A DNA stretch of 64,000 nucleotides from Thermoanaerobaculia bacterium. Its GTDB lineage: Bacteria; Acidobacteriota; Thermoanaerobaculia; Multivoradales; JAIOJS01. Below the pieces are notes generated by a model that saw only the letters and a list, made by a program, of their open reading frames with translations, was not told the DNA's origin and ran no database searches. The stretch is from NCBI GenBank assembly GCA_030429235.1, contig JAUIDB010000012.1:1-64000 (forward strand), in the 5' to 3' direction. The translations under genes and the position numbers were made by a program. Of the stretch, positions 13,887-28,667 are shown piece by piece; position 1 is the stretch's first letter, and every line of letters starts with the position of its first letter.

Positions 13887-14195
13887 TCAGCCAGCCTGCT
13901 TGCTGGCCACGAAACGGGCCAACGAATCGACCGAAGCGAGAGCCTCGGCTCCCATCTCTTCATCCTCGATCTTGACCCCGAACTCCTGTTCGACCCCGAG
14001 CACGAGTTCCAGGGCGTCGATCGAGTCGAGTCCCAAGCCCTCCCCGAAGAGCGGTTCCTCGTCGGCGATCGACTCGGGGGTCTCCTCGAGTTTCAAGCGA
14101 TCGACGATCAGGACCTTGATCTGCGACTTCAGGGCCGTCAGATCGGAAGAAGAGGAGGATTCGGAAGGGTTGTCGAGGGTAGTTTGCTCAGTCAT
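13887..14195 (-). CDS. Acyl carrier protein
   Basis: The 102-residue protein has a Ser-rich N-terminal extension of about 20 residues. The four-helix ACP fold follows, with the 4'-phosphopantetheine attachment serine in GLGLDSIDALELVLGVEQ. Helix 3 reads VKIEDEEMGAEALASVDSLA. The DSI (rather than DSL) context is common in dedicated, non-housekeeping ACPs. It sits between fabG-like and dehydratase genes on the same strand. No ketosynthase or phosphopantetheinyl transferase gene is visible in the window. Confidence 0.9.
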   Translation of the reverse strand: MTEQTTLDNPSESSSSSDLTALKSQIKVLIVDRLKLEETPESIADEEPLFGEGLGLDSIDALELVLGVEQEFGVKIEDEEMGAEALASVDSLARFVASKQAG

Positions 14196-14240: not shown

Positions 14241-14972
14241 TCAAGCCGTCATCAGGCCGCCGTCGATGCGCAGGGTCTGACCGGTGATGTAGGCCGCCTG
14301 GGGTGAGGCCAGAAAGCCGACCGCCGCCGCCACTTCTTCCGGTTCACCGAACCGACGCAGTGGGATCTCGAGCCGATACTGCTCCCGTTTGGCGGCCGAG
14401 AGTCCCGACAACATGTCCGTCTCGATGAAGCCCGGGGCGATGGCGTTCGCCGTGACTCCGTAGGTAGCGACCTCCTTGGACAGCGCCTTGGTGAAGGCGA
14501 TGAGTCCTCCCTTGGCCGCGCTGTAGTGGGTCTGGCCCGGCTGTCCGGCGACCCCCGAGAGGCTCGCGATCGAGATCACCCGGCCCCAACGCTCCTTCAG
14601 CATGCCCTTCACCAGGAGCCGGGTCAGCAGAAAGGCGCCCCGTAGGTTCACTTCGTAGATCTCGTCCCAGGCCTCCTCGGACAGCAGCGGCAGCAGTGCA
14701 TCGCGAATGATCCCGGCGTTGTGTACCAGGATGTGGACCGGACCCTGTTCCGCCTCGATCCTGGCCGCGACGTCGCGCGTCGCCGGCCGGTCCCGCAAGT
14801 CCATGCGGTACGCCTCGAGGCCCAGTTCCTGGGCCAGAGCCGCGGCGTTGCCGTCGTCGTGGTGGTAGGTAATGACGACCTTGCAACCCCGGGCTCGGAG
14901 TTCGCGGGCGCAGGCGGCACCGATACCGCGGCTCGCGCCTGTGATCAGGGCGGTCCGCCCTTCGAGACTCAT
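14241..14972 (-). CDS. fabG: 3-oxoacyl-ACP reductase (FabG-like SDR)
   Basis: This 243-residue classical short-chain dehydrogenase has the NADP-binding TGASRGIGAACARELRARG near the N-terminus, NAG at HNAGII, and the catalytic Ser (SIASLSG) and YSAAKGGLIAFTKALSKE (YxxxK). The C-terminal block PGFIETDM...GFLASPQAAYITGQTLRIDGG is FabG-like. It reduces a 3-oxoacyl-ACP to the 3-hydroxyacyl form, matching the ACP and dehydratase immediately downstream. It begins 22 nt after the deacetylase gene. It may be a specialised paralogue rather than the housekeeping FabG. Confidence 0.88.
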   Translation of the reverse strand: MSLEGRTALITGASRGIGAACARELRARGCKVVITYHHDDGNAAALAQELGLEAYRMDLRDRPATRDVAARIEAEQGPVHILVHNAGIIRDALLPLLSEEAWDEIYEVNLRGAFLLTRLLVKGMLKERWGRVISIASLSGVAGQPGQTHYSAAKGGLIAFTKALSKEVATYGVTANAIAPGFIETDMLSGLSAAKREQYRLEIPLRRFGEPEEVAAAVGFLASPQAAYITGQTLRIDGGLMTA

Positions 14973-14994
14973 GTCGTTGTTTCCTCGTTCGTGG

Positions 14995-15882
14995 TCAGGC
15001 CGCGGTATCCGCGGCGTTCAGGAGTTCCTCCAACGGTCGCCAGGGAAGCCGCTCGAGGATCTGCCGGAACTTCCTACGATAGCCCGAACGACCGGCCTCG
15101 TGCACGAACCGCGCGGCGCCACGCAGCGAACCCGGGGTCGACCGGGTCGAGAGCTCCCAGGGATGCACGACGAAGGTGACCGGCCGGCCCGCCTCCAGCG
15201 CGGCCGCCGCGCGTCCCGCGATCCAGCGCCCGCCGAGGAGTCTGCCGGTCCAGCCGGCCGCAGGAATCCGCAACCGACCGCCGTAGGTGAAGGGTGGCAA
15301 CTCGACCAACCGAAGCTCGCTTTCCCAGCGCACCTGGTAGGGATCGCGGCCGTTGGCTGGTGTCCCCGCCAGCAGGTAGGGCGCCAGCGAGCTGTCGTAG
15401 CGATACCCCGCCTCGGCCACCACCGCCAGCTTGGGGTTGTCGAAGCGGCGTAGCGACCACTCCGGCGAGCGATACCCGACCACGGCGCGCCCGATGAGCT
15501 GCTCCAACTCACGGCGCGAGCGAGTGATGTCGGCCCGGAAGGCCTCGACGTCCAGCTCCCCCACTCGGATGTGGTGGTCGCCGTGGCTTCCGATCTCGTG
15601 CCCGGCCGCAACGACCTCGCGGATCCGGTGGGGCACCTGCCGCGCCACCTCACCCAGCACGAAAAAGGTGGCGCGCACGCCACAGTCGGCGAAGAGTTCC
15701 AGCACTTCCGGTAGCAGCCAGTCGAGCTCTCGCGTCAGATCCGGTCGGGACTCGGGGTGGACGTACTCGGGCACCAGGCAGGTGTGGTACCACTCCTCCA
15801 CGTCGACGGTGAGGGAGGGGCGTGCCGGCAGACGCAGCGGAGTCACCTCTACCCGGCTCTGAGCGGTCGAGCCTTCGGTCAT
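14995..15882 (-). CDS. Polysaccharide deacetylase (NodB domain, DUF3473-type C-terminus)
   Basis: The 295-residue protein starts with the NodB motif 1 LTVDVEEWYHTCLVPEY (catalytic DxE variant typical of the DUF3473 subgroup). It continues with RATFFVLGEVARQVPH, the metal-binding GHEIGSHGDHH and YRSPEWSLRRFD. The C-terminal ~100 residues, with FVVHPWELSTR, match the DUF3473 extension found in exopolysaccharide loci. It likely deacetylates an N-acetylated polymer. Its ATG overlaps the GT2 stop by 4 nt, so sugar transfer and deacetylation are probably linked. Confidence 0.85.
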   Translation of the reverse strand: MTEGSTAQSRVEVTPLRLPARPSLTVDVEEWYHTCLVPEYVHPESRPDLTRELDWLLPEVLELFADCGVRATFFVLGEVARQVPHRIREVVAAGHEIGSHGDHHIRVGELDVEAFRADITRSRRELEQLIGRAVVGYRSPEWSLRRFDNPKLAVVAEAGYRYDSSLAPYLLAGTPANGRDPYQVRWESELRLVELPPFTYGGRLRIPAAGWTGRLLGGRWIAGRAAAALEAGRPVTFVVHPWELSTRSTPGSLRGAARFVHEAGRSGYRRKFRQILERLPWRPLEELLNAADTAA

Positions 15883-16580
15883 GCGAAGAGTTTGAAGTAC
15901 ACCGAGGAGGCGAAGATCCGCCAGGTATCGAGGAAGGGGCGGAAGTGGCTCGTGCCGCCCTCTTCGTAGATGGTCCGGACCCGCACCTGGGCCAGGGACG
16001 CCTTCTGCTTGGCGGCCTTGATGAGCATCTCGGACTCGACGGCATAGCCCCTCGAGCGCAGGTCGAGAGCGCGCAGCAAGGAAGCGTCGAGGAGACGATA
16101 GCCGGACTGGCTGTCTTCGAGCCGGTAGCCGGTGACCAGGGAGAGGATCCGCGACCCGATGACGTTGGTCCAGTAGCGCGGCCCGGGGATGGCGGCGCGA
16201 TCGGCCAGACGGGTACCGACCACCAACTGACCGTCACCCCTGTCCCAGGCCGCCAACAGAGCCGGGATGTCCTCCGGAGCGTGCTGACCATCGGCATCGA
16301 GTAGCAACACCGCCTCGGGATCGCCCTCCAGCGCGATATCGATACCTCGCCGAAGCGCCGCACCCTTGCCCTGGTTGCGCTCGAACCTCTCCACCTCGGC
16401 TCCCGCCCGGCTGGCGACGTTCGAGGTCTCGTCCTCGGAACCGTCGTCGACCACCACCACGCGGGCGGTATGCCGGAGGACTCCGGTCACGACCTGGCCG
16501 ATCGAACCCTCGCATCGGAAGGCGGGGATCACGGCCACCACGTCGGAACGTGGTGGTCCCGCTGCCTCCTGGGTTCTCAT
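15879..16580 (-). CDS. Family 2 glycosyltransferase (polyprenyl-phosphate sugar transferase-like)
   Basis: The ATG at 16580 gives 233 residues; the longer in-frame extension runs into the rex promoter and is not coding-like. GT2 features are VVAVIPAFRCEGSIGQVV, VVVVDDGSEDET, NQGKGAALRRGID, the metal-binding VLLLDADGQH and the SQSGYRLLD acceptor block. It resembles DPM1/DPG synthases, which transfer a sugar from NDP to polyprenyl phosphate. No membrane helices follow the catalytic domain. It is coupled to the deacetylase gene by a 4-nt overlap and divergent from rex. Confidence 0.87.
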   Translation of the reverse strand: MRTQEAAGPPRSDVVAVIPAFRCEGSIGQVVTGVLRHTARVVVVDDGSEDETSNVASRAGAEVERFERNQGKGAALRRGIDIALEGDPEAVLLLDADGQHAPEDIPALLAAWDRGDGQLVVGTRLADRAAIPGPRYWTNVIGSRILSLVTGYRLEDSQSGYRLLDASLLRALDLRSRGYAVESEMLIKAAKQKASLAQVRVRTIYEEGGTSHFRPFLDTWRIFASSVYFKLFA

Positions 16581-16655
16581 GGCCCCGAGTTTAAACGCTG
16601 ACGGGTTGGGACGGTAGCGGCGCGGGGTCCACTCGCCAGACCGCGCCAACTCTGC

Positions 16656-16673
16656 TTGTGACAACACGCACAA
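16656..16673 (+). promoter_or_regulatory. Rex operator upstream of rex
   Basis: A perfect inverted repeat TTGTG-N8-CACAA has the arm sequence and spacing known for Rex binding sites (TTGTGAANNNNTTCACAA type). It lies about 100 bases before the rex coding start and overlaps the predicted -35 box and spacer. Rex would be expected to repress its own gene at high NAD+ and release at high NADH. Confidence 0.75.
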
Positions 16674-20948: not shown

Positions 20949-21019
20949 CACCTTCCCGATTCCGCAACTGGACGGCATCCCGCCGGTGGCCAGCCCCAGC
21001 CCGCAACCAAGGAGTTTCC

Positions 21020-22687
21020 GTGAACCGACTCGCTACCCCCCTCGGCCGCTCGACTGCTCTTTCCTTCCTCGCCCTGGCCCTGCTCGCGCCGCTCGGTGCC
21101 GTCGAGCCCGAGGTCGGTCAGGACGCACCCATCATCGAAGCCCAGACTCTGCGCGCTCATCTCGAGTTCCTGGCCGACGATCTGCTCCAGGGGCGGGACA
21201 CCGGCACCGACGAGTACCGGATCGCGGCCGCCTACGTTGCGGCCCAGTTCACGAAGTACGGGTTGGAGCCCGCGGGCGACGACGGTACCTTCCTCCAAAC
21301 CGTGACCTACCGCACCACCACGCTGGACGAGGAAAGCGTCGAGTTTGCAGTGCTGCAGGGCAAGAAGAAGCGGAAGCTGACCTACAAGGAAGACTTCCTG
21401 CTGGGCGGTGACCCCGCCCAGGAAGAGACCACGGTGGAAGCGGAGTTGGTCTTCATCGGCTTCGGAATCGATGCCCCCGAGTTCGGCATCGATTCGTTCG
21501 CCGGGATCGACCTCGAGGGGAAGATCGCGATCTCCTTGACCGGTTCCCCCGACGGCATCCCCAGCGAGGAGCGCGCGCACTACAGCGGCCGCACCACCAA
21601 GCGTCTCGCCGCCGCCGACCGCGGCGCCCTCGGACTGCTCTGGATCCCCTCGAAGAGCGACGCCGAGCGCCGGCCCTGGGAGCGCCGGCAGCGCTGGGCG
21701 GGACGTCCCAGCCTGACCTGGATGGGGGAAGACGGGGCCACCGGTGGTCTGCCGTCCGGCCTCAGGGTATCCGCCTACTTGAGCCAGAAGGCCGCCACCC
21801 CGCTGTTCGAGCGTGCCGGCCACCCGCTGGCGGACCTGCTCGAGCTGGCGGAGGAGAATCCGAGCGAACTCCCCTCCTTCGCGCTCGGACAAACCGCCCA
21901 GGTCTCCTTCCGCTCGACCCACGAGGCGGTAACCAGCCCCAACGTAGCGGGCCTGCTGCCGGGCTCCGATCCGGAACTCAGCCACGAAACGGTGGTCTAC
22001 ACCGCCCATCTCGACCACGTCGGCGTCGGCCGTGAGGTCGAGGGCGACACCATCTACAACGGTGCCTACGACAACGCGATGGGCTCCGCCATCACTCTCG
22101 CCGTGGCCGAGGCGATGGCCGACATGGAAACACGCCCCCGTCGTTCGGTGCTCTTCCTGCTCGTCGGCGGCGAGGAGAAGGGCCTCCTCGGCTCCAGCTA
22201 CTTCGCTCAATACCCAACCGTGGCGATCGAGAACATCGTAGCCGACATCAACATCGACATGCCCCTGATGCTCGCGCCCCTCGATCAGATCATCGCCTTC
22301 GGCTCCGAGCATTCCACCCTCGAGGCCGCCGTCGCCGACGCGGCCGCCGTGAACGGCTTCACCCTGATCCCCGATCCGAAACCCGAGCAGCGGCTCTTCG
22401 TTCGCAGTGACCAGTACTCCTTCGTGCGTCGTGGCGTCCCCTCGATCTATCTCGTGCCCGGAGCGAACTCCACTGACCCGGAGATCGACGGAGAGCAGTT
22501 GGTCGAGGACTTCGTCGAGAATCACTACCACCGTCCATCCGACGATCTCTCGCAGCCCGTGGACTGGCCCACGGCGGAACGCTTCAGCCGTACCAACCTC
22601 CTGATCGGCTTGATCGTGGCCAACGAGGACGAGCGTCCGAGTTGGAACGAAGGAAGCTTCTTCGGCGAGGTCTTCGGGCGCCGCTGA
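21020..22687 (+). CDS. Secreted M28-family zinc aminopeptidase with PA domain
   Basis: The protein has 555 residues. The GTG start at 21020 is preceded by AAGGAG at ideal spacing, and a signal peptide follows (to about residue 27). An insert around residues 130-290 resembles a PA (protease-associated) domain. The peptidase core has the di-zinc ligands in YTAHLDHVGVG, GAYDNAMGSAITLAVAEAM (Asp), LVGGEEKGLLGSSYF (Glu-Glu) and DINIDMPL. It ends with a catalytic-core His in DDLSQPVDW. It would trim N-terminal residues from peptides in the periplasm or outside the cell. Confidence 0.9.
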   Translation: MNRLATPLGRSTALSFLALALLAPLGAVEPEVGQDAPIIEAQTLRAHLEFLADDLLQGRDTGTDEYRIAAAYVAAQFTKYGLEPAGDDGTFLQTVTYRTTTLDEESVEFAVLQGKKKRKLTYKEDFLLGGDPAQEETTVEAELVFIGFGIDAPEFGIDSFAGIDLEGKIAISLTGSPDGIPSEERAHYSGRTTKRLAAADRGALGLLWIPSKSDAERRPWERRQRWAGRPSLTWMGEDGATGGLPSGLRVSAYLSQKAATPLFERAGHPLADLLELAEENPSELPSFALGQTAQVSFRSTHEAVTSPNVAGLLPGSDPELSHETVVYTAHLDHVGVGREVEGDTIYNGAYDNAMGSAITLAVAEAMADMETRPRRSVLFLLVGGEEKGLLGSSYFAQYPTVAIENIVADINIDMPLMLAPLDQIIAFGSEHSTLEAAVADAAAVNGFTLIPDPKPEQRLFVRSDQYSFVRRGVPSIYLVPGANSTDPEIDGEQLVEDFVENHYHRPSDDLSQPVDWPTAERFSRTNLLIGLIVANEDERPSWNEGSFFGEVFGRR

Positions 22688-22784
22688 TTCCCCGGAAGCG
22701 ACGAGCGATCCGTCTCCTGGACCCGAAGCTTGCCCTCAGCGACGGCCCCGGGCGGCCGACCGGCGGCGACCGCGGGGCTGGCCG

Positions 22785-24548
22785 GTGATCGTTCTCGGAA
22801 TCTCCGCCTTCTACCACGATGCGGCCTGCTGCCTGCTGCGCGACGGTGAACTCGTTGCCGCCGCCCAGGAGGAGCGTTTCACCCGTCGGAAGGGGGAGGC
22901 CAGGCTACCGGTCGCCGCCTTTCGCTACTGCCTGAACGAAGCAGGTTGCGGGGTCCAGGACCTCGACCTGGTCGCGTTCTACGAGTCCCCGGACCTGAAG
23001 CTAGAGCGCCAGCGATGGATGCTCCGGGCCTACCCGCCTCCCTCCTCTCCGCCTCGTCTCGCCGCCCCCGATGCCGTCGAGCGGGAGATCCGTCAGCGAC
23101 TGGGGATCGAGGCTCCCCTTCGTACCTACCGGCACCATCGATCCCACGCCGCATCGGCGTACTACTTCTCCGGGTTCGACGACGCCGCCATCCTCACCGT
23201 AGACGGCGTCGGAGAGTGGGCGACCACCGCCCTGTGGCGCGGCCGCGGTGCGGCCCTCGAACCGCTGCTCGAGGTCGCCTTTCCCCACTCGCTGGGACTC
23301 CTCTACTCCGCCGTCACGGCCTTCCTCGGGTTTGCCGCGAACGGAGGCGAGTCCAAGGTCATGGGACTGGCGAGCTACGGCCAACCGATCTACGCCCGGG
23401 AACTCGCGGAGCGAATCCAGTGGGTCGACGACGGCAGGTTCGAGCTCGACCAGACTCTCTTCCGAGGTTTCCAGGGCCTCGGCGACCTCGTCCCGGGGCT
23501 CAGCGCCCTGTTCCACGGGCCGCCTCGCGCCCCCGGCGACTCCCTCACCCGGCGCCACCGCGACATCGCGGCGAGTCTGCAGATGGTGCTCGAGGAGTCC
23601 CTCCTCCGGCTGGCCGCCGAGGCGCGACGCCGGGTCGACTCCTCCAACCTCTGCTTCGCCGGCGGCGTCGCCCTCAACGGCGTGGGCAACGGCAGGTTGC
23701 GGCGATCGGGCCTCTTCGACCAGCTGTTCGTACCGCCCGCCCCGGGAGATTCGGGAGCCTGTCTCGGCGCCGCGGTCCTGGCCACGCTCGGCGAACGGTC
23801 CACTCCGACCCAAGCCTTGACCCATTCCTCGTTCGGGCCCTCGTTCTCGGCCGGCGAGGTCGCGACCTTTCTGGAACGGGCGGCGATTCCCAGCACCGAC
23901 TACCGCGAGGACCCTGCCGCGCTCTACGCCACGCTGGCCGAACGACTGGCCCGAGGACAAGTTGTCGGCTGGTTCCAAGGGCGCATGGAGATGGGTCCCC
24001 GCGCCCTGGGCTCTCGCAGCCTGTTGGCCAGCCCTCTCGATCCCGCGGTGCGCGACCGTCTCAACCGCCAGATCAAGGGGCGCGAGGACTGGCGTCCCTT
24101 CGGGCCCTGCATCCTCGCCTCCCGCGTCTCCGACTACCTCGAACTCGAGGCCCCCTCCCCCTTTATGATGGAGACCTGCCGCGTGCGAGACGAGACCGAG
24201 TGGCCAGCGGTCACCCACGTCGACGGCTCCACCCGACCCCAGACTGTGGACCCGACGGTCCATCCCCGACTCGCCGCCCTCCTGCGCGCCTTCGAGGCTC
24301 GGACGAACTGCCCGGCGCTCCTGAACACCTCCTTCAACCGCGCCGGGGAGCCGATCGTCTGCTCTCCGCTCGACGCGCTCCGGACCTTCGCGCTGGCAGG
24401 CTTCGACACCCTGGTGCTCGGCGACCACCTCGTCGACGCTTCCGATCTCCCGCCGCACCTGATCTCCAGGTTGCGGGCCCGAGATCCGCTCGCTCTTCCC
24501 CGAGCAGACGAACCACCTCTGAACCGACAGCTCTACCGTCTCGTCTAG
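22785..24548 (+). CDS. Carbamoyltransferase, NodU/CmcH family
   Basis: The protein has 587 residues from a GTG start. The N-terminal Kae1-like domain begins VLGISAFYHDAACCLLRDG and has the metal/adenylate site residues HHRSHAASAYYFSGF (near residue 116), TVDGVGEW, ANGGESKVMGLASYG and CFAGGVALNGVGNGRL. The C-terminal domain has GRMEMGPRALGSRSLLASP and LLNTSFNRAGEPIVCSP. These enzymes make carbamoyl-adenylate from carbamoyl phosphate and ATP, then carbamoylate a hydroxyl on an antibiotic, Nod factor or sugar. The next genes are an SGNH-like protein and an MbtH-like protein, which suggests a dedicated product. Confidence 0.92.
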   Translation: MIVLGISAFYHDAACCLLRDGELVAAAQEERFTRRKGEARLPVAAFRYCLNEAGCGVQDLDLVAFYESPDLKLERQRWMLRAYPPPSSPPRLAAPDAVEREIRQRLGIEAPLRTYRHHRSHAASAYYFSGFDDAAILTVDGVGEWATTALWRGRGAALEPLLEVAFPHSLGLLYSAVTAFLGFAANGGESKVMGLASYGQPIYARELAERIQWVDDGRFELDQTLFRGFQGLGDLVPGLSALFHGPPRAPGDSLTRRHRDIAASLQMVLEESLLRLAAEARRRVDSSNLCFAGGVALNGVGNGRLRRSGLFDQLFVPPAPGDSGACLGAAVLATLGERSTPTQALTHSSFGPSFSAGEVATFLERAAIPSTDYREDPAALYATLAERLARGQVVGWFQGRMEMGPRALGSRSLLASPLDPAVRDRLNRQIKGREDWRPFGPCILASRVSDYLELEAPSPFMMETCRVRDETEWPAVTHVDGSTRPQTVDPTVHPRLAALLRAFEARTNCPALLNTSFNRAGEPIVCSPLDALRTFALAGFDTLVLGDHLVDASDLPPHLISRLRARDPLALPRADEPPLNRQLYRLV

Positions 24549-24573
24549 CCGGAGACCCTCCCGACTTCGCCCC

Positions 24574-26571
24574 ATGCCGGACACGCCATCAACCCCCACC
24601 AAGCCCCTGGAACCGATCAGCATCTGGGCCCCGGTGGTCGATTCCGGCGGAGTGCGGTTCGAGCGCCCGGCCCCGGGGATCTTCGCCGACCACTACGCTC
24701 CACGCCGTAGCCTGGCGCTTCGGGCGCAGCCCGACCAACGACGGATCGTCTTCCTCGGCGAGTCGGCCGCCGCGGGTTACCTGTACGCTCCCTACCTGAC
24801 CCCTGCCCTTCGATTGCAGGAACTGCTCTCCGCGACCCCCGTGCTGGGACCGGTCGACGTGATCGATCTCGCCCGCACCAACGAAACGCTGTCGGGACTC
24901 GTCACCACCGCTCGCTCCTCGAGACAACTTCGCCCCGACCTCTTCGTCGTCTTCACCGGCAACAACTGGGGGCTCCTCGAGACCCAGGACTTCTCGGCCT
25001 ACGGTCCGCCGGCGGGGCGCCAGGCGGTGGGTGAGTCCCTCGCCGCCGGTGGCTGGAGCCAGCTGGCCAGGAACGGTGCCCAGCACACGCTGCGGCACGC
25101 CGCCGAAGCGCTCGATCGGCTGGCTCGAGATGCCGCCGGAACCCCATTGATCCTGGTCATTCCTGAGGTCGACCGGCAGCACTGGGAGGTGCGGCAACCC
25201 GTTCCCTGGCTGCCCGGACACGGCGTAGCCGAGTGGTATCGGGCGCTCGCTCGTGGCGAGCGGGCCCTGGGCGACGGGGACGGCCGTAGCGCGTTGGCGG
25301 CGGCCCACCAGATGTTGACCCTCGACGAAGGAGTGGTGGCGACGACCTACCGACTTCTCGGCCGTGCCTGGTGCCTGCTGGATCGCCTCGATCGAGCCGA
25401 GGACGCCTGCCAGGCCGCGCTCGAGGCCTCGCCACTGGCTACCACCGGTTTCCTCGGATCCCCCCGCATCACTCCCGCCGAACAGGAACTGCTCCGGCGG
25501 GCTGGAGCCGAGCATGGCTGGGAGGTCGTGGACCTCCCGGCCCTCTTCGCCCACCACCAGCCCACCACTCCCGAGGCGCCGAGGCTCTTTCTCGACTACT
25601 GCCACCTCTCCGCCGAGGGTGTCGATCTGGCGATGAGTAGCGTCGCCGCGCGGATCATGGCGCGCTGGGAGGCTCCGCAAACGAGCGGTACCCAGCGAGC
25701 CACTGCTTTGGACGTGGATCCCGTCGTCGAGGCCAGAGCCTGCATCGGTGCCGCCGTCCACGCCGCGCACCGAGCGCTTCCCCTGGCTCGAACCGACGCG
25801 CACCGCGAGATCGCAGCCTGGTGCCAGGCCGCGATCGCGGCCGATCCCAGTGCGCTCGCCACCCTCAGAACGCTGGCCCAGCTCCGGCTGGAGTCGGTGC
25901 CTCCGGCTACGGTCACCAGCGAGTCGCGACCGCAGGACCACTCCCTCCTCGATCCCCGGATCCTCGCTCTCCTGGAGGGAGCCCACTCCCTCACGCCCCA
26001 ACACGGACTGCTCTGGGAGGGTCTCGACGGCCAGCTGATCGAGGTCGTGGAGCATCTGCTCGTCACACGGGGCGAGCCGGGGTTGGACTACTCTCCCCTC
26101 TGGGAGCCGCGGCCGGGCAACCGCGTGGAGAACCGGTGGTGGCTCGAGTCCCCCCTCGAGCAGCTCTACCCTGACGCCCTGGATCGCGACGGGCAACGGC
26201 GCCACGCCCACTTCCGAGCTGCCTGGCCCCGCACCACCTTCTGGCTCGGCCCTTCCGAGTGCGACCTCCTCCTGCGAGCGACGGTGCGCACTCCGGGCCG
26301 GTACCCAGCCACGTCGCCTTCGATCGGCGTCGCCGTCAACGGAGTCGAGCAGGATCCGATCCGTTCCTCTCCCACTTGGCGAGAGCGCACGACCAGACTC
26401 CGGGCCACCGACTTCGGACCAGGCCTCAATCGCCTCACGCTGACCTGGCCTTTTCCCCAGGCGGAAGAATCCCCCATCGACGAGCTGATCCAGTCGCTGC
26501 GACAAGGCGAAGAAGTCGATCTCTTCCCGATCTTCGGCGAACTCCACGCCCTGTCGGTCCACCGTGGGTAG
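24574..26571 (+). CDS. Large SGNH-hydrolase-like multidomain protein
   Basis: The protein has 665 residues and no signal peptide. Block I RIVFLGESAAAGY (Ser near residue 63), block III FTGNNW (near 127) and a late LDYCHLSAEG (Asp/His near 340) match SGNH/GDSL esterases. A TPR-like insert (about 225-290: WYRALARGERALGDGD, LLGRAWCLLDRLDRAEDAC) interrupts the domain. The C-terminal third (about 530-660) looks like a beta-sandwich (TTFWLGPSECDLLLRATV), perhaps carbohydrate binding. It lies 25 nt after the carbamoyltransferase and 48 nt before the MbtH-like gene. It could be an acyl transferase or esterase acting on the same molecule; its substrate is unknown. Confidence 0.7.
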   Translation: MPDTPSTPTKPLEPISIWAPVVDSGGVRFERPAPGIFADHYAPRRSLALRAQPDQRRIVFLGESAAAGYLYAPYLTPALRLQELLSATPVLGPVDVIDLARTNETLSGLVTTARSSRQLRPDLFVVFTGNNWGLLETQDFSAYGPPAGRQAVGESLAAGGWSQLARNGAQHTLRHAAEALDRLARDAAGTPLILVIPEVDRQHWEVRQPVPWLPGHGVAEWYRALARGERALGDGDGRSALAAAHQMLTLDEGVVATTYRLLGRAWCLLDRLDRAEDACQAALEASPLATTGFLGSPRITPAEQELLRRAGAEHGWEVVDLPALFAHHQPTTPEAPRLFLDYCHLSAEGVDLAMSSVAARIMARWEAPQTSGTQRATALDVDPVVEARACIGAAVHAAHRALPLARTDAHREIAAWCQAAIAADPSALATLRTLAQLRLESVPPATVTSESRPQDHSLLDPRILALLEGAHSLTPQHGLLWEGLDGQLIEVVEHLLVTRGEPGLDYSPLWEPRPGNRVENRWWLESPLEQLYPDALDRDGQRRHAHFRAAWPRTTFWLGPSECDLLLRATVRTPGRYPATSPSIGVAVNGVEQDPIRSSPTWRERTTRLRATDFGPGLNRLTLTWPFPQAEESPIDELIQSLRQGEEVDLFPIFGELHALSVHRG

Positions 26572-26619
26572 AATTCCGGCACTGCCCCAGACCCGCCACC
26601 CCTCGCCGAAGGAGAGTCC

Positions 26620-26847
26620 ATGTCCGATCGCTACCGAGTCGTCATCAACCACGAAGAACAGTACTCGATCTGGCCCGCCGACCAGACGATCCCCCGCGGC
26701 TGGACGGATGCCGGGACCACCGGCGACCGCGCCCGATGCACCGCGCACATCGAGAGGGTCTGGGGGGAGATCCGCGTGCTGGACCCCAACGATCGCCGCC
26801 GGCGCCTGCGCGAGATGGAGGAGCTGATCCGCCGCGACGCCGGATAG
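26620..26847 (+). CDS. MbtH-like protein
   Basis: The 75-residue protein has GAAGGAGAG before its ATG. The MbtH signature is nearly complete: YRVVINHEEQYSIWPADQTI (NxExQxSxWP), PRGWTDAGTTGDRARC and the following HIERVWGEIRVL, which replaces the usual CLxxIxxxWTDxRP. MbtH proteins bind and activate adenylation domains of non-ribosomal peptide synthetases. No NRPS or adenylation domain is encoded in the window. It ends the carbamoyltransferase/SGNH cassette, so it either serves a distant NRPS or has another partner here. The C-terminal ~20 residues are an extra charged helix. Confidence 0.85.
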   Translation: MSDRYRVVINHEEQYSIWPADQTIPRGWTDAGTTGDRARCTAHIERVWGEIRVLDPNDRRRRLREMEELIRRDAG

Positions 26848-26905
26848 CGGCTCGACCCGATCGGAGGGCCGAGCCCGCTCGTCCCGGTCCCTGCTCCCAA
26901 CGCCT

Positions 26906-27772
26906 TCACTCTCGGATCGAGTCGGAAGCGTCCTCGACCGAGAAGAGACGCCGGGCACCCGCGATGCCGCAGCCCTGGTAGGCATCGTAGGCGCGAGCGG
27001 CGGCCTCGTGAATCTCCGCCGCATCGCCACCCTCGAGCAGCCTGGTCAAGGCTGCGTCGAGGGTGTAGGCCTCAGGTGCCAACAGCCCCGTCGTGAGCAG
27101 AAGGGGAGTCGAGCCGGCCCGCTTCAGCGCTTCCAGAAAGTAGGGTCTGCTCGCGCAGGCCAGAACGATCGAGCCGCGAGACAGGCCATCGGGAGCGACC
27201 TTCGGCGCCGCTGCGAGTTCGAAGTCCATCAGCCCGTTGTGCCCGACGAAGACCTGGACTGCCGCCGCACCGCCCGCTCCGATCGACTCCCCTTCTTCGA
27301 GAGCGACGACCTCGGGGCGTCCGCCTGCCGCCAAGGCCATGAAGTGCTCGATCGCGTCCGCGATCTGGCTCCCATCCCAGGCGTCTGCCACCACCAGCAG
27401 TTCGATCGGTTCTTCGTCGCGAACCACCGACTTTCGCAGCACGAGCCGTTCGAGAACTCCGTCGGGCGGGGCCGAGGAAGCACGGGCCGCCCGATATCCC
27501 GAACGAAGCAGATGGGTCTTGACCCCGTATCGGGCGCCCCAGTAGAGATTGGATCGAGGATCCTGCCCGTTGCCGAGCGTTGCCGGGACCGGCACGATCC
27601 CTTGATTCTCGTTGTCGCAGAGGGCCACGACGACGTGCACGACCACCGGCGCTCCGGATTCCTGCAGTCCCTCGAGCCGCGACTGAATCCGGTCGACCTG
27701 GGCCGCGAGCCCTGGTTCCAGCCACGATGACAGCAAGAGGGCGAAGCAGCAGCACCGGCCGAAGGGCTTCAT
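26906..27772 (-). CDS. Secreted conserved protein with caspase-like signature, function unknown
   Basis: The protein has 288 residues with a signal peptide (to about residue 24). The conserved N-terminal block reads VHVVVALCDNENQGIVPVPA, followed by LGNGQDPRSNLYWGARYGVK. A later hydrophobic strand ends in VFVGHNGLMDF (His178), and another ends in SIVLACASRPYF (Cys206). His-x-Gly followed by Ala-Cys after hydrophobic strands is the pattern of clan CD cysteine peptidases (caspase/gingipain fold). I recognise the family as a recurrent uncharacterised protein, but the peptidase idea is inference. It converges on the MbtH gene with 58 bases between. Confidence 0.7.
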   Translation of the reverse strand: MKPFGRCCCFALLLSSWLEPGLAAQVDRIQSRLEGLQESGAPVVVHVVVALCDNENQGIVPVPATLGNGQDPRSNLYWGARYGVKTHLLRSGYRAARASSAPPDGVLERLVLRKSVVRDEEPIELLVVADAWDGSQIADAIEHFMALAAGGRPEVVALEEGESIGAGGAAAVQVFVGHNGLMDFELAAAPKVAPDGLSRGSIVLACASRPYFLEALKRAGSTPLLLTTGLLAPEAYTLDAALTRLLEGGDAAEIHEAAARAYDAYQGCGIAGARRLFSVEDASDSIRE

Positions 27773-27854
27773 GCTCTCTCAGACCGCCCGCTGGGCTGAT
27801 CGGTTCCCTCATCCGGCCAAGAGGGAGACTCCCGAGCGGCCCGCCCCCTGGCGC

Positions 27855-28667
27855 CTACGGAGGCGGTCCGGTCCTGGGACAGTGTTCGAAGAAGGTCGAA
27901 GTGTCGAGAATCGGGGCGAACGGCTGCCCTGGATTCGACTGATACGTGGTCGACCGCCTTCCGACGTTGTCTCGGACTCTTAGTACGACTTCGAGGTTGG
28001 TCATCCCCGACACGAAGACCCAGTGGGAGTAGGCGGAGGGCGGAGGACAAACGTCGAGAATCTTCACGATCAACTCCGGATTCTCCTTCGAGAAGAACCA
28101 GAAATGGCCCCAACGATCGGAGCTGCGACCAGCGTGGCCGAACCGAAGGTCGGACGTGGGGTCCGGCGACCACTCAGCCTCGATGGTAAAGATCCGTCGA
28201 AGCAGATTGAGGCGGCGGCGCTCCAGCAGGGCAACCGGCTCGAGCACCAGGTCTTCGAACAGGAAACCGTACCGATCGCAACAGCCCTCACCGTAGTGGC
28301 CGTTCAGTACCGCCGGACCGCCGGCGCTCGACTCGATCGTCAGCTCGACCGACTGATACGTGGTGACGGTCGAGAAGCGGAGTGCACCGTCTCCGACCAA
28401 CTGTCCAGGCAGCTCCGACAGATCGATGAGCCCGGGAGCTGGCCAGACCGCGCCGGTGGTCGAGTAGACGATGTCCGAATAGAGGATCCTCGGGGCCGAG
28501 GGGTCAGCATCGACCTCGAGCTCTCCTTCGAGTACCGCCGTGAAGCAGGAGTTCCCACTGAACCCGCCACAGGCGGTCACCGGCTGTGGGTTGATCCGAT
28601 AGAACTGCGCCGCGGCAAAGGCCGGCCACGACAGAGCGAGCCAGAACAAGACACTCTTTGTGGTCAT
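27855..28667 (-). CDS. Secreted protein with a C-terminal domain shared with the 30667-31731 product
   Basis: The ATG at 28667 gives 270 residues and a signal peptide ending AFAAAQ; the in-frame 5' extension is Arg/Pro-rich and not coding-like. The middle part is a predicted beta-rich domain with paired cysteines (EGCCDRYGFLFEDLVL). The C-terminal ~100 residues (FTIEAEW, WGHFWFFSKENPELIVKILD, VCPPPSAYSHWVFVSGMTN, ending FFEHC) align with the tail of the secreted protein encoded at 30667-31731. No enzymatic motif was seen. It is probably an extracellular or surface protein. Confidence 0.72.
   Translation of the reverse strand: MTTKSVLFWLALSWPAFAAAQFYRINPQPVTACGGFSGNSCFTAVLEGELEVDADPSAPRILYSDIVYSTTGAVWPAPGLIDLSELPGQLVGDGALRFSTVTTYQSVELTIESSAGGPAVLNGHYGEGCCDRYGFLFEDLVLEPVALLERRRLNLLRRIFTIEAEWSPDPTSDLRFGHAGRSSDRWGHFWFFSKENPELIVKILDVCPPPSAYSHWVFVSGMTNLEVVLRVRDNVGRRSTTYQSNPGQPFAPILDTSTFFEHCPRTGPPP

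Follow-up and report, generated by a model that had tools for sequence, protein, structure and literature searches.

The orphan MbtH protein MXAN_3118 of Myxococcus xanthus can serve several NRPSs (Esquilin-Lebron 2018, as cited in PMC7593251). In the saxitoxin cluster, the GDSL protein SxtL lies beside the carbamoyltransferase SxtI and was proposed to remove a carbamoyl or acyl group (PMC2885083), and for the carbamoyltransferase GdmN the Fe ligands H133, H137, D156 and D333 and the general base H27 have been described (PMC9633730). Here, we analyzed the window (the whole stretch of 64,000 nucleotides from a Thermoanaerobaculia bacterium), in which a carbamoyltransferase (CT), an SGNH/GDSL protein and an MbtH-like protein are encoded one behind the other. 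We consider it fairly likely that these are NRPS accessory genes located away from their NRPS, with the CT-SGNH pair tailoring the product and MbtH serving in trans an NRPS locus on another contig of the same genome, called C14.

The tandem arrangement of the three genes at 22785-26847, as described in the earlier note, was confirmed in coordinates and strand. The CT gene (22785..24548, + strand, GTG start, 587 aa) is separated by 25 bases from the SGNH/GDSL gene (24574..26571, + strand, 665 aa), whose product is of the hydrolase or acyltransferase type. After a gap of 48 bases follows the MbtH-like gene (26620..26847, + strand, 75 aa), which is preceded by the Shine-Dalgarno sequence AGGAG (26610..26614, + strand), a good match read directly from the DNA. 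As neither a sigma-70-like promoter nor a terminator-like site on the + strand was found in the region scanned from 20950 to 27900, the three genes possibly share one transcript. The window was said to lack an adenylation domain, and indeed no adenylation or condensation match was obtained anywhere on its contig (C37). The genes around the three-gene row have a housekeeping appearance. A carrier protein encoded at 13908-14123 (- strand) was considered as an NRPS PCP and rejected, since its GLDSIDALEL motif is type II fatty-acid ACP-like and its gene adjoins a FabG-like gene. At 13908-14123 and 14244-16673 (both - strand), the type II ACP thus lies beside a FabG-like reductase, a polysaccharide deacetylase with DUF3473 and a glycosyltransferase, possibly a small lipid or polysaccharide locus.

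The CT is a class III O-carbamoyltransferase of the NodU/CmcH/TobZ/GdmN kind. It was matched in Pfam by Carbam_trans_N (6.6e-66) and Carbam_trans_C (2.4e-63) and in phmmer searches by GdmN (8e-96) and TobZ (5e-93), the nearest solved structures being GdmN, the novobiocin carbamoyltransferase and TobZ. Kae1-like and YrdC-like domains, the H/H/D/D metal ligands and the general-base His are all present, and the active-site residues are intact: H133, H137, D156, D333 and H27 of GdmN align with H117, H121, D140, D322 and H11 of the window CT, which are invariant among the 14 CTs aligned. A carbamoylation step is suggested by this family membership. The enzyme would convert ATP and carbamoyl phosphate to carbamoyl-AMP and would then move the carbamoyl group to a hydroxyl, possibly on a sugar, of a molecule that derives from an NRPS and is either still on its carrier or already released. 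The genome encodes a second CT on contig C76 (L238:7198-9802; G000:C76:46051-47793), which belongs to a different subfamily and is followed by two small proteins; these presumably resemble SxtJ and DUF5989. Yet another CT family (33% identity) is found at L234:8400-12629 in another genome (G026:C191), 1.3 kb upstream of an MbtH gene and a small unknown protein on a contig with NRPS genes.

In the SGNH protein, Lipase_GDSL_2 was detected below threshold (6e-6; 27.3 bits versus a gathering score of 32.9 bits). A TPR-like helical stretch (residues ~225-287) is inserted between SGNH blocks III and V and splits the GDSL domain; an additional C-terminal region lies beyond. The same domain was detected in 11 out of 12 SGNH homologues (best value 2.1e-9). 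The motifs GES62-64, GNN129-131 and DxxH341-344 provide the catalytic Ser of block I (S64), the Asn of block III (N130/N131) and the Asp-x-x-His of block V (D341/H344), and E63, S64, N130, N131, D341 and H344 are invariant in the 12 aligned sequences. No signal peptide was apparent when the N terminus was inspected by eye, and a single-sequence AlphaFold2 model yielded no usable fold (mean pLDDT 34). The SGNH protein would be a cytosolic enzyme working on the same substrate as the CT, either as an ester hydrolase or as an acyl transferase. A variant of our preferred reading, which differs in the SGNH step alone and leaves MbtH serving the NRPS in trans, holds that the SGNH protein is an esterase stripping the carbamoyl (or another acyl) group, i.e. 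a decarbamoylase or a means of self-protection. Intact catalytic residues and the constant pairing with a CT are consistent with this variant, as is the precedent of SxtI and SxtL, itself a proposal (PMC2885083). However, a constant companion of the CT would reverse the work of the CT unless timing or substrate differ, and removal is only a putative direction for the SGNH step; we regard the variant as unlikely, though a realistic possibility.

The pairing itself is well preserved. Strong homologues of the SGNH protein were found in 13 genomes of the class, counting that of the window, plus three further Acidobacteriota, and at all 18 homologous loci besides that of the window a CT (50-56% identity) is encoded upstream of the SGNH gene on the same strand. 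It is the immediate neighbor except in G021, where ~2.6 kb with an AraC-type regulator lie between the two. CT and SGNH thus constitute a conserved unit. In relatives, this unit is repeatedly seen next to NRPS parts: in G024:C86, the CT gene starts before a preceding NRPS gene (C-A-PCP-C-A-PCP-TE) has ended; in G243:C8, an NRPS with TE is followed directly by CT-SGNH, with MbtH 2.4 kb off on the other strand; in G055:C148, 2.5 kb separate the pair from the end of an upstream NRPS with TE, and the same TE is found at the sister locus G054:C82; and the CT is immediately preceded by a free PCP gene in G055:C38 and G054:C34. An NRPS core gene in the same locus is hence found at G024:C86 and G243:C8 and is absent from C37. 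NRPS genes beside the row in relatives had been named beforehand as a finding that would speak against a cassette without an NRPS, and they do occur, adjoining the CT-SGNH pair. Condensation domains are present in all 13 class genomes carrying the pair, the excess being weaker when counted by genus (0.014), and MbtH is present in 15 of the 16 genomes carrying it. Two observations count against our preferred reading: 12 of the 18 homologous loci showed no NRPS or PCP gene within the fetched sequence (a few kb to ~50 kb), and many NRPS-rich genomes are devoid of the pair, so that CT-SGNH is optional. For the 12 loci, a link to NRPSs would rest on family resemblance. As the pair is found with NRPS parts often enough, tailoring of NRPS-made molecules is its most likely job. 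In a limited literature search, CT-SGNH pairs accompanying an NRPS were not found described.

The MbtH-like protein was matched by PF03621 with 2.2e-20 and 72 bits, the curated cut-off being 27. The signature NxExQxSxWP-x5-PxGW with the two clasping Trp is complete (N10, E12, Q14, S16, W18, P19, P25, G27 and W28), and a column comparison with 114 homologues showed that the half facing the adenylation domain (NHEEQYSIWP...P.GW) is intact. In the same comparison, the C-terminal motif L..WTDMRPLSL reads T..WGEIRVLDPNDR in the window protein, with a 3-residue insertion. The signature L-x6-WTDxRPxSL is therefore broken: T41 replaces L, and W48-G-E-I-R52 is followed by the inserted VLD. Divergence at T41, G49 and E50, together with the insertion in WTDxRP, counts against our preferred reading, since the corresponding residues and the WTDxRP motif matter for TxtH; E. 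coli YbdZ is likewise off at two places of L-x6-WTDxRPxSL (PMC7593251). Judged by these motifs, the window protein is not a textbook MbtH. A DQT triplet is carried by the MbtH proteins of the window and of G290 and is absent from ~110 others. A tree of MbtH proteins, built for placement, was uninformative due to the shortness of the protein (75 aa) and a long branch.

The host genome (G000; 4.85 Mb, 92 contigs, completeness 100) was scanned in full for NRPS adenylation domains, as the earlier note had proposed, and a single NRPS locus was found, on C14. All condensation-domain matches of the genome and three of its adenylation domains are located there, the latter at C14:157545-158627, 164402-165418 and 167570-168667. 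The locus encodes C-A-PCP-TE (1413 aa), C-A-PCP (1449 aa), a free A and a free PCP as well as a PPTase homologue, a methyltransferase and glycosyltransferases. MbtH is not among its genes, and according to the whole-genome search the genome has no copy other than that of the window. The second NRPS (L163:14654-19000, - strand, G000:C14) is an unusual module, with a gap in its condensation domain and a weak QueC-like match (2.7e-4, below the Pfam cut-off) between A domain and PCP. We infer that the orphan MbtH would bind the C14 adenylation domains and support them in trans. The suggestion that the cassette tailors the product of a distant NRPS has thus gained ground, both from the one NRPS locus of the genome and from the relatives in which CT-SGNH lies directly behind NRPS genes.

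Of the 149 class genomes, 62 have a condensation domain, and 30 of these encode MbtH; of the 87 without a condensation domain, none does (Fisher 2e-14; 2e-5 by genus, which roughly allows for relatedness). G058, the sole congener of the host among the genomes searched, has neither MbtH nor a condensation domain. For 20 MbtH loci of the class, iterated profiles detected no A or C domain in the 9-19 kb fetched at any of them; a tblastn search with the A and C domains of the host genome lacked sensitivity. Condensation candidates number in the tens to hundreds in many of the genomes concerned. An MbtH gene with no adjoining NRPS is therefore normal in the class, and orphan MbtH proteins are common. 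In G089 and G091, MbtH adjoins a type II thioesterase and a PPTase, elsewhere a small unknown protein. A family of small acidic proteins (~90-117 aa, no Pfam match) is encoded right next to MbtH in some dozen Acidobacteriota genomes (e.g. L172:10122-10427, + strand; L166:5971-6243, - strand; L175:10082-10408, + strand) and also occurs near MbtH in Chloroflexi (L029, L041, L091) and Actinobacteria (L048, L049, L084, L087, L090); it is possibly an undescribed MbtH-associated protein. Tandem double MbtH domains in a single open frame of ~167-169 residues were seen at G037:C73:4082-4444 and G038:C53:4120-4461.

The expectation that the three-gene order would be kept in relatives did not hold for most of them. 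Of the other class genomes carrying CT-SGNH, 12 in number, 11 have MbtH on a separate contig and G022 lacks it; in G025, for instance, the pair is located on a contig of 207 kb, and MbtH lies far from the ends of a second contig, which measures 236 kb. MbtH is linked to the pair only in the window, in G290 and inside the NRPS cluster of G243. The genome of G290 is a single contig of 5.1 Mb and shows a tight row in the order MbtH-CT-SGNH, its sole condensation domain belonging to a PKS-NRPS at a distance of 1.25 Mb. When the chance of finding two more linked cases among 15 genomes was roughly estimated with a binomial, 1.5e-4 was obtained, and together with the DQT triplet and the row in G290 this indicates that the linkage is probably not due to chance; it fits genes used for the same product. 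A common NRPS partner of G290 and G000 was considered and rejected, because the PKS-NRPS hybrid of G290 matches C14 merely as a generic NRPS; the NRPSs of the two genomes are not orthologous clusters. These data bear on the reading of the row as an accidental junction, in which an orphan mbtH landed behind an unrelated operon and CT-SGNH modifies a non-NRPS product. Such a reading would accommodate the housekeeping-like surroundings in the window and the 12 other class genomes in which the pair is not linked to MbtH. We nonetheless consider it quite unlikely given that the linkage is seen again in G290 and G243, that a different CT family lies close to MbtH on the NRPS contig of G026, and that NRPS or PCP genes occur at six other CT-SGNH loci.

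The same linkage could also point to a new partner of MbtH inside the cassette, where it would act as a chaperone of the CT or the SGNH protein independently of NRPSs. That MbtH stays with CT-SGNH and away from the NRPS in both G290 and G000 is expected for an in-cassette partner and counts against our preferred reading. The exclusive DQT triplet, the drifted C-terminal binding motif and the binomial estimate point the same way, and the CT also forms an acyl-AMP-like intermediate. On the other hand, MbtH of the class never occurs without a condensation domain, the pair does not require a linked MbtH, which is unlinked or missing in the 12 other class genomes, and the conserved half of the window MbtH is the face that contacts adenylation domains; known CTs, moreover, have Kae1/YrdC folds, which are unrelated to adenylation domains. 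Chaperoning within the cassette is thus very unlikely in our view, and we find it highly improbable that MbtH was recruited as a stabilizer or activator of a protein other than an NRPS, with the carbamoyl-AMP-forming CT as the likeliest candidate, and that the three genes form one complex devoid of an adenylation domain. The new role for MbtH that the earlier note had raised found no direct support, as MbtH tracks the presence of NRPSs exactly in the class, and a non-NRPS role is not needed to account for the gene data.

With the three genes read as accessory genes of a remote NRPS, the puzzle of an MbtH without an NRPS turns into a testable assignment, namely a CT-SGNH tailoring pair and an orphan MbtH for remote NRPSs. 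In Acidobacteriota, CT-SGNH pairs occur both inside NRPS clusters and standing alone. Genome mining restricted to clusters would overlook tailoring genes placed this far off and so predict the wrong product.

Compared to the described systems, the window CT shares the two-domain build and the Fe-ligand and general-base residues with TobZ, GdmN, NovN, CmcH and NodU, and differs from them in being constantly paired with an SGNH protein. It also lacks the small SxtJ/DUF5989-like partners found beside the CT on C76. SxtI and SxtL likewise combine a carbamoyltransferase with a GDSL/SGNH protein within one pathway (PMC2885083), a likeness drawn from their description and not from their sequences; unlike SxtL, the window SGNH protein carries both a TPR-like insertion and a long C-terminal region, and its gene directly follows that of the CT. 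To the extent that MXAN_3118 is described in PMC7593251, both it and the window protein are lone stand-alone MbtH proteins in an NRPS-containing genome, encoded outside the NRPS cluster. In contrast to MXAN_3118 as described there, the window MbtH sits behind a CT-SGNH pair, its WTDxRP motif has diverged, and its binding to an NRPS is predicted.
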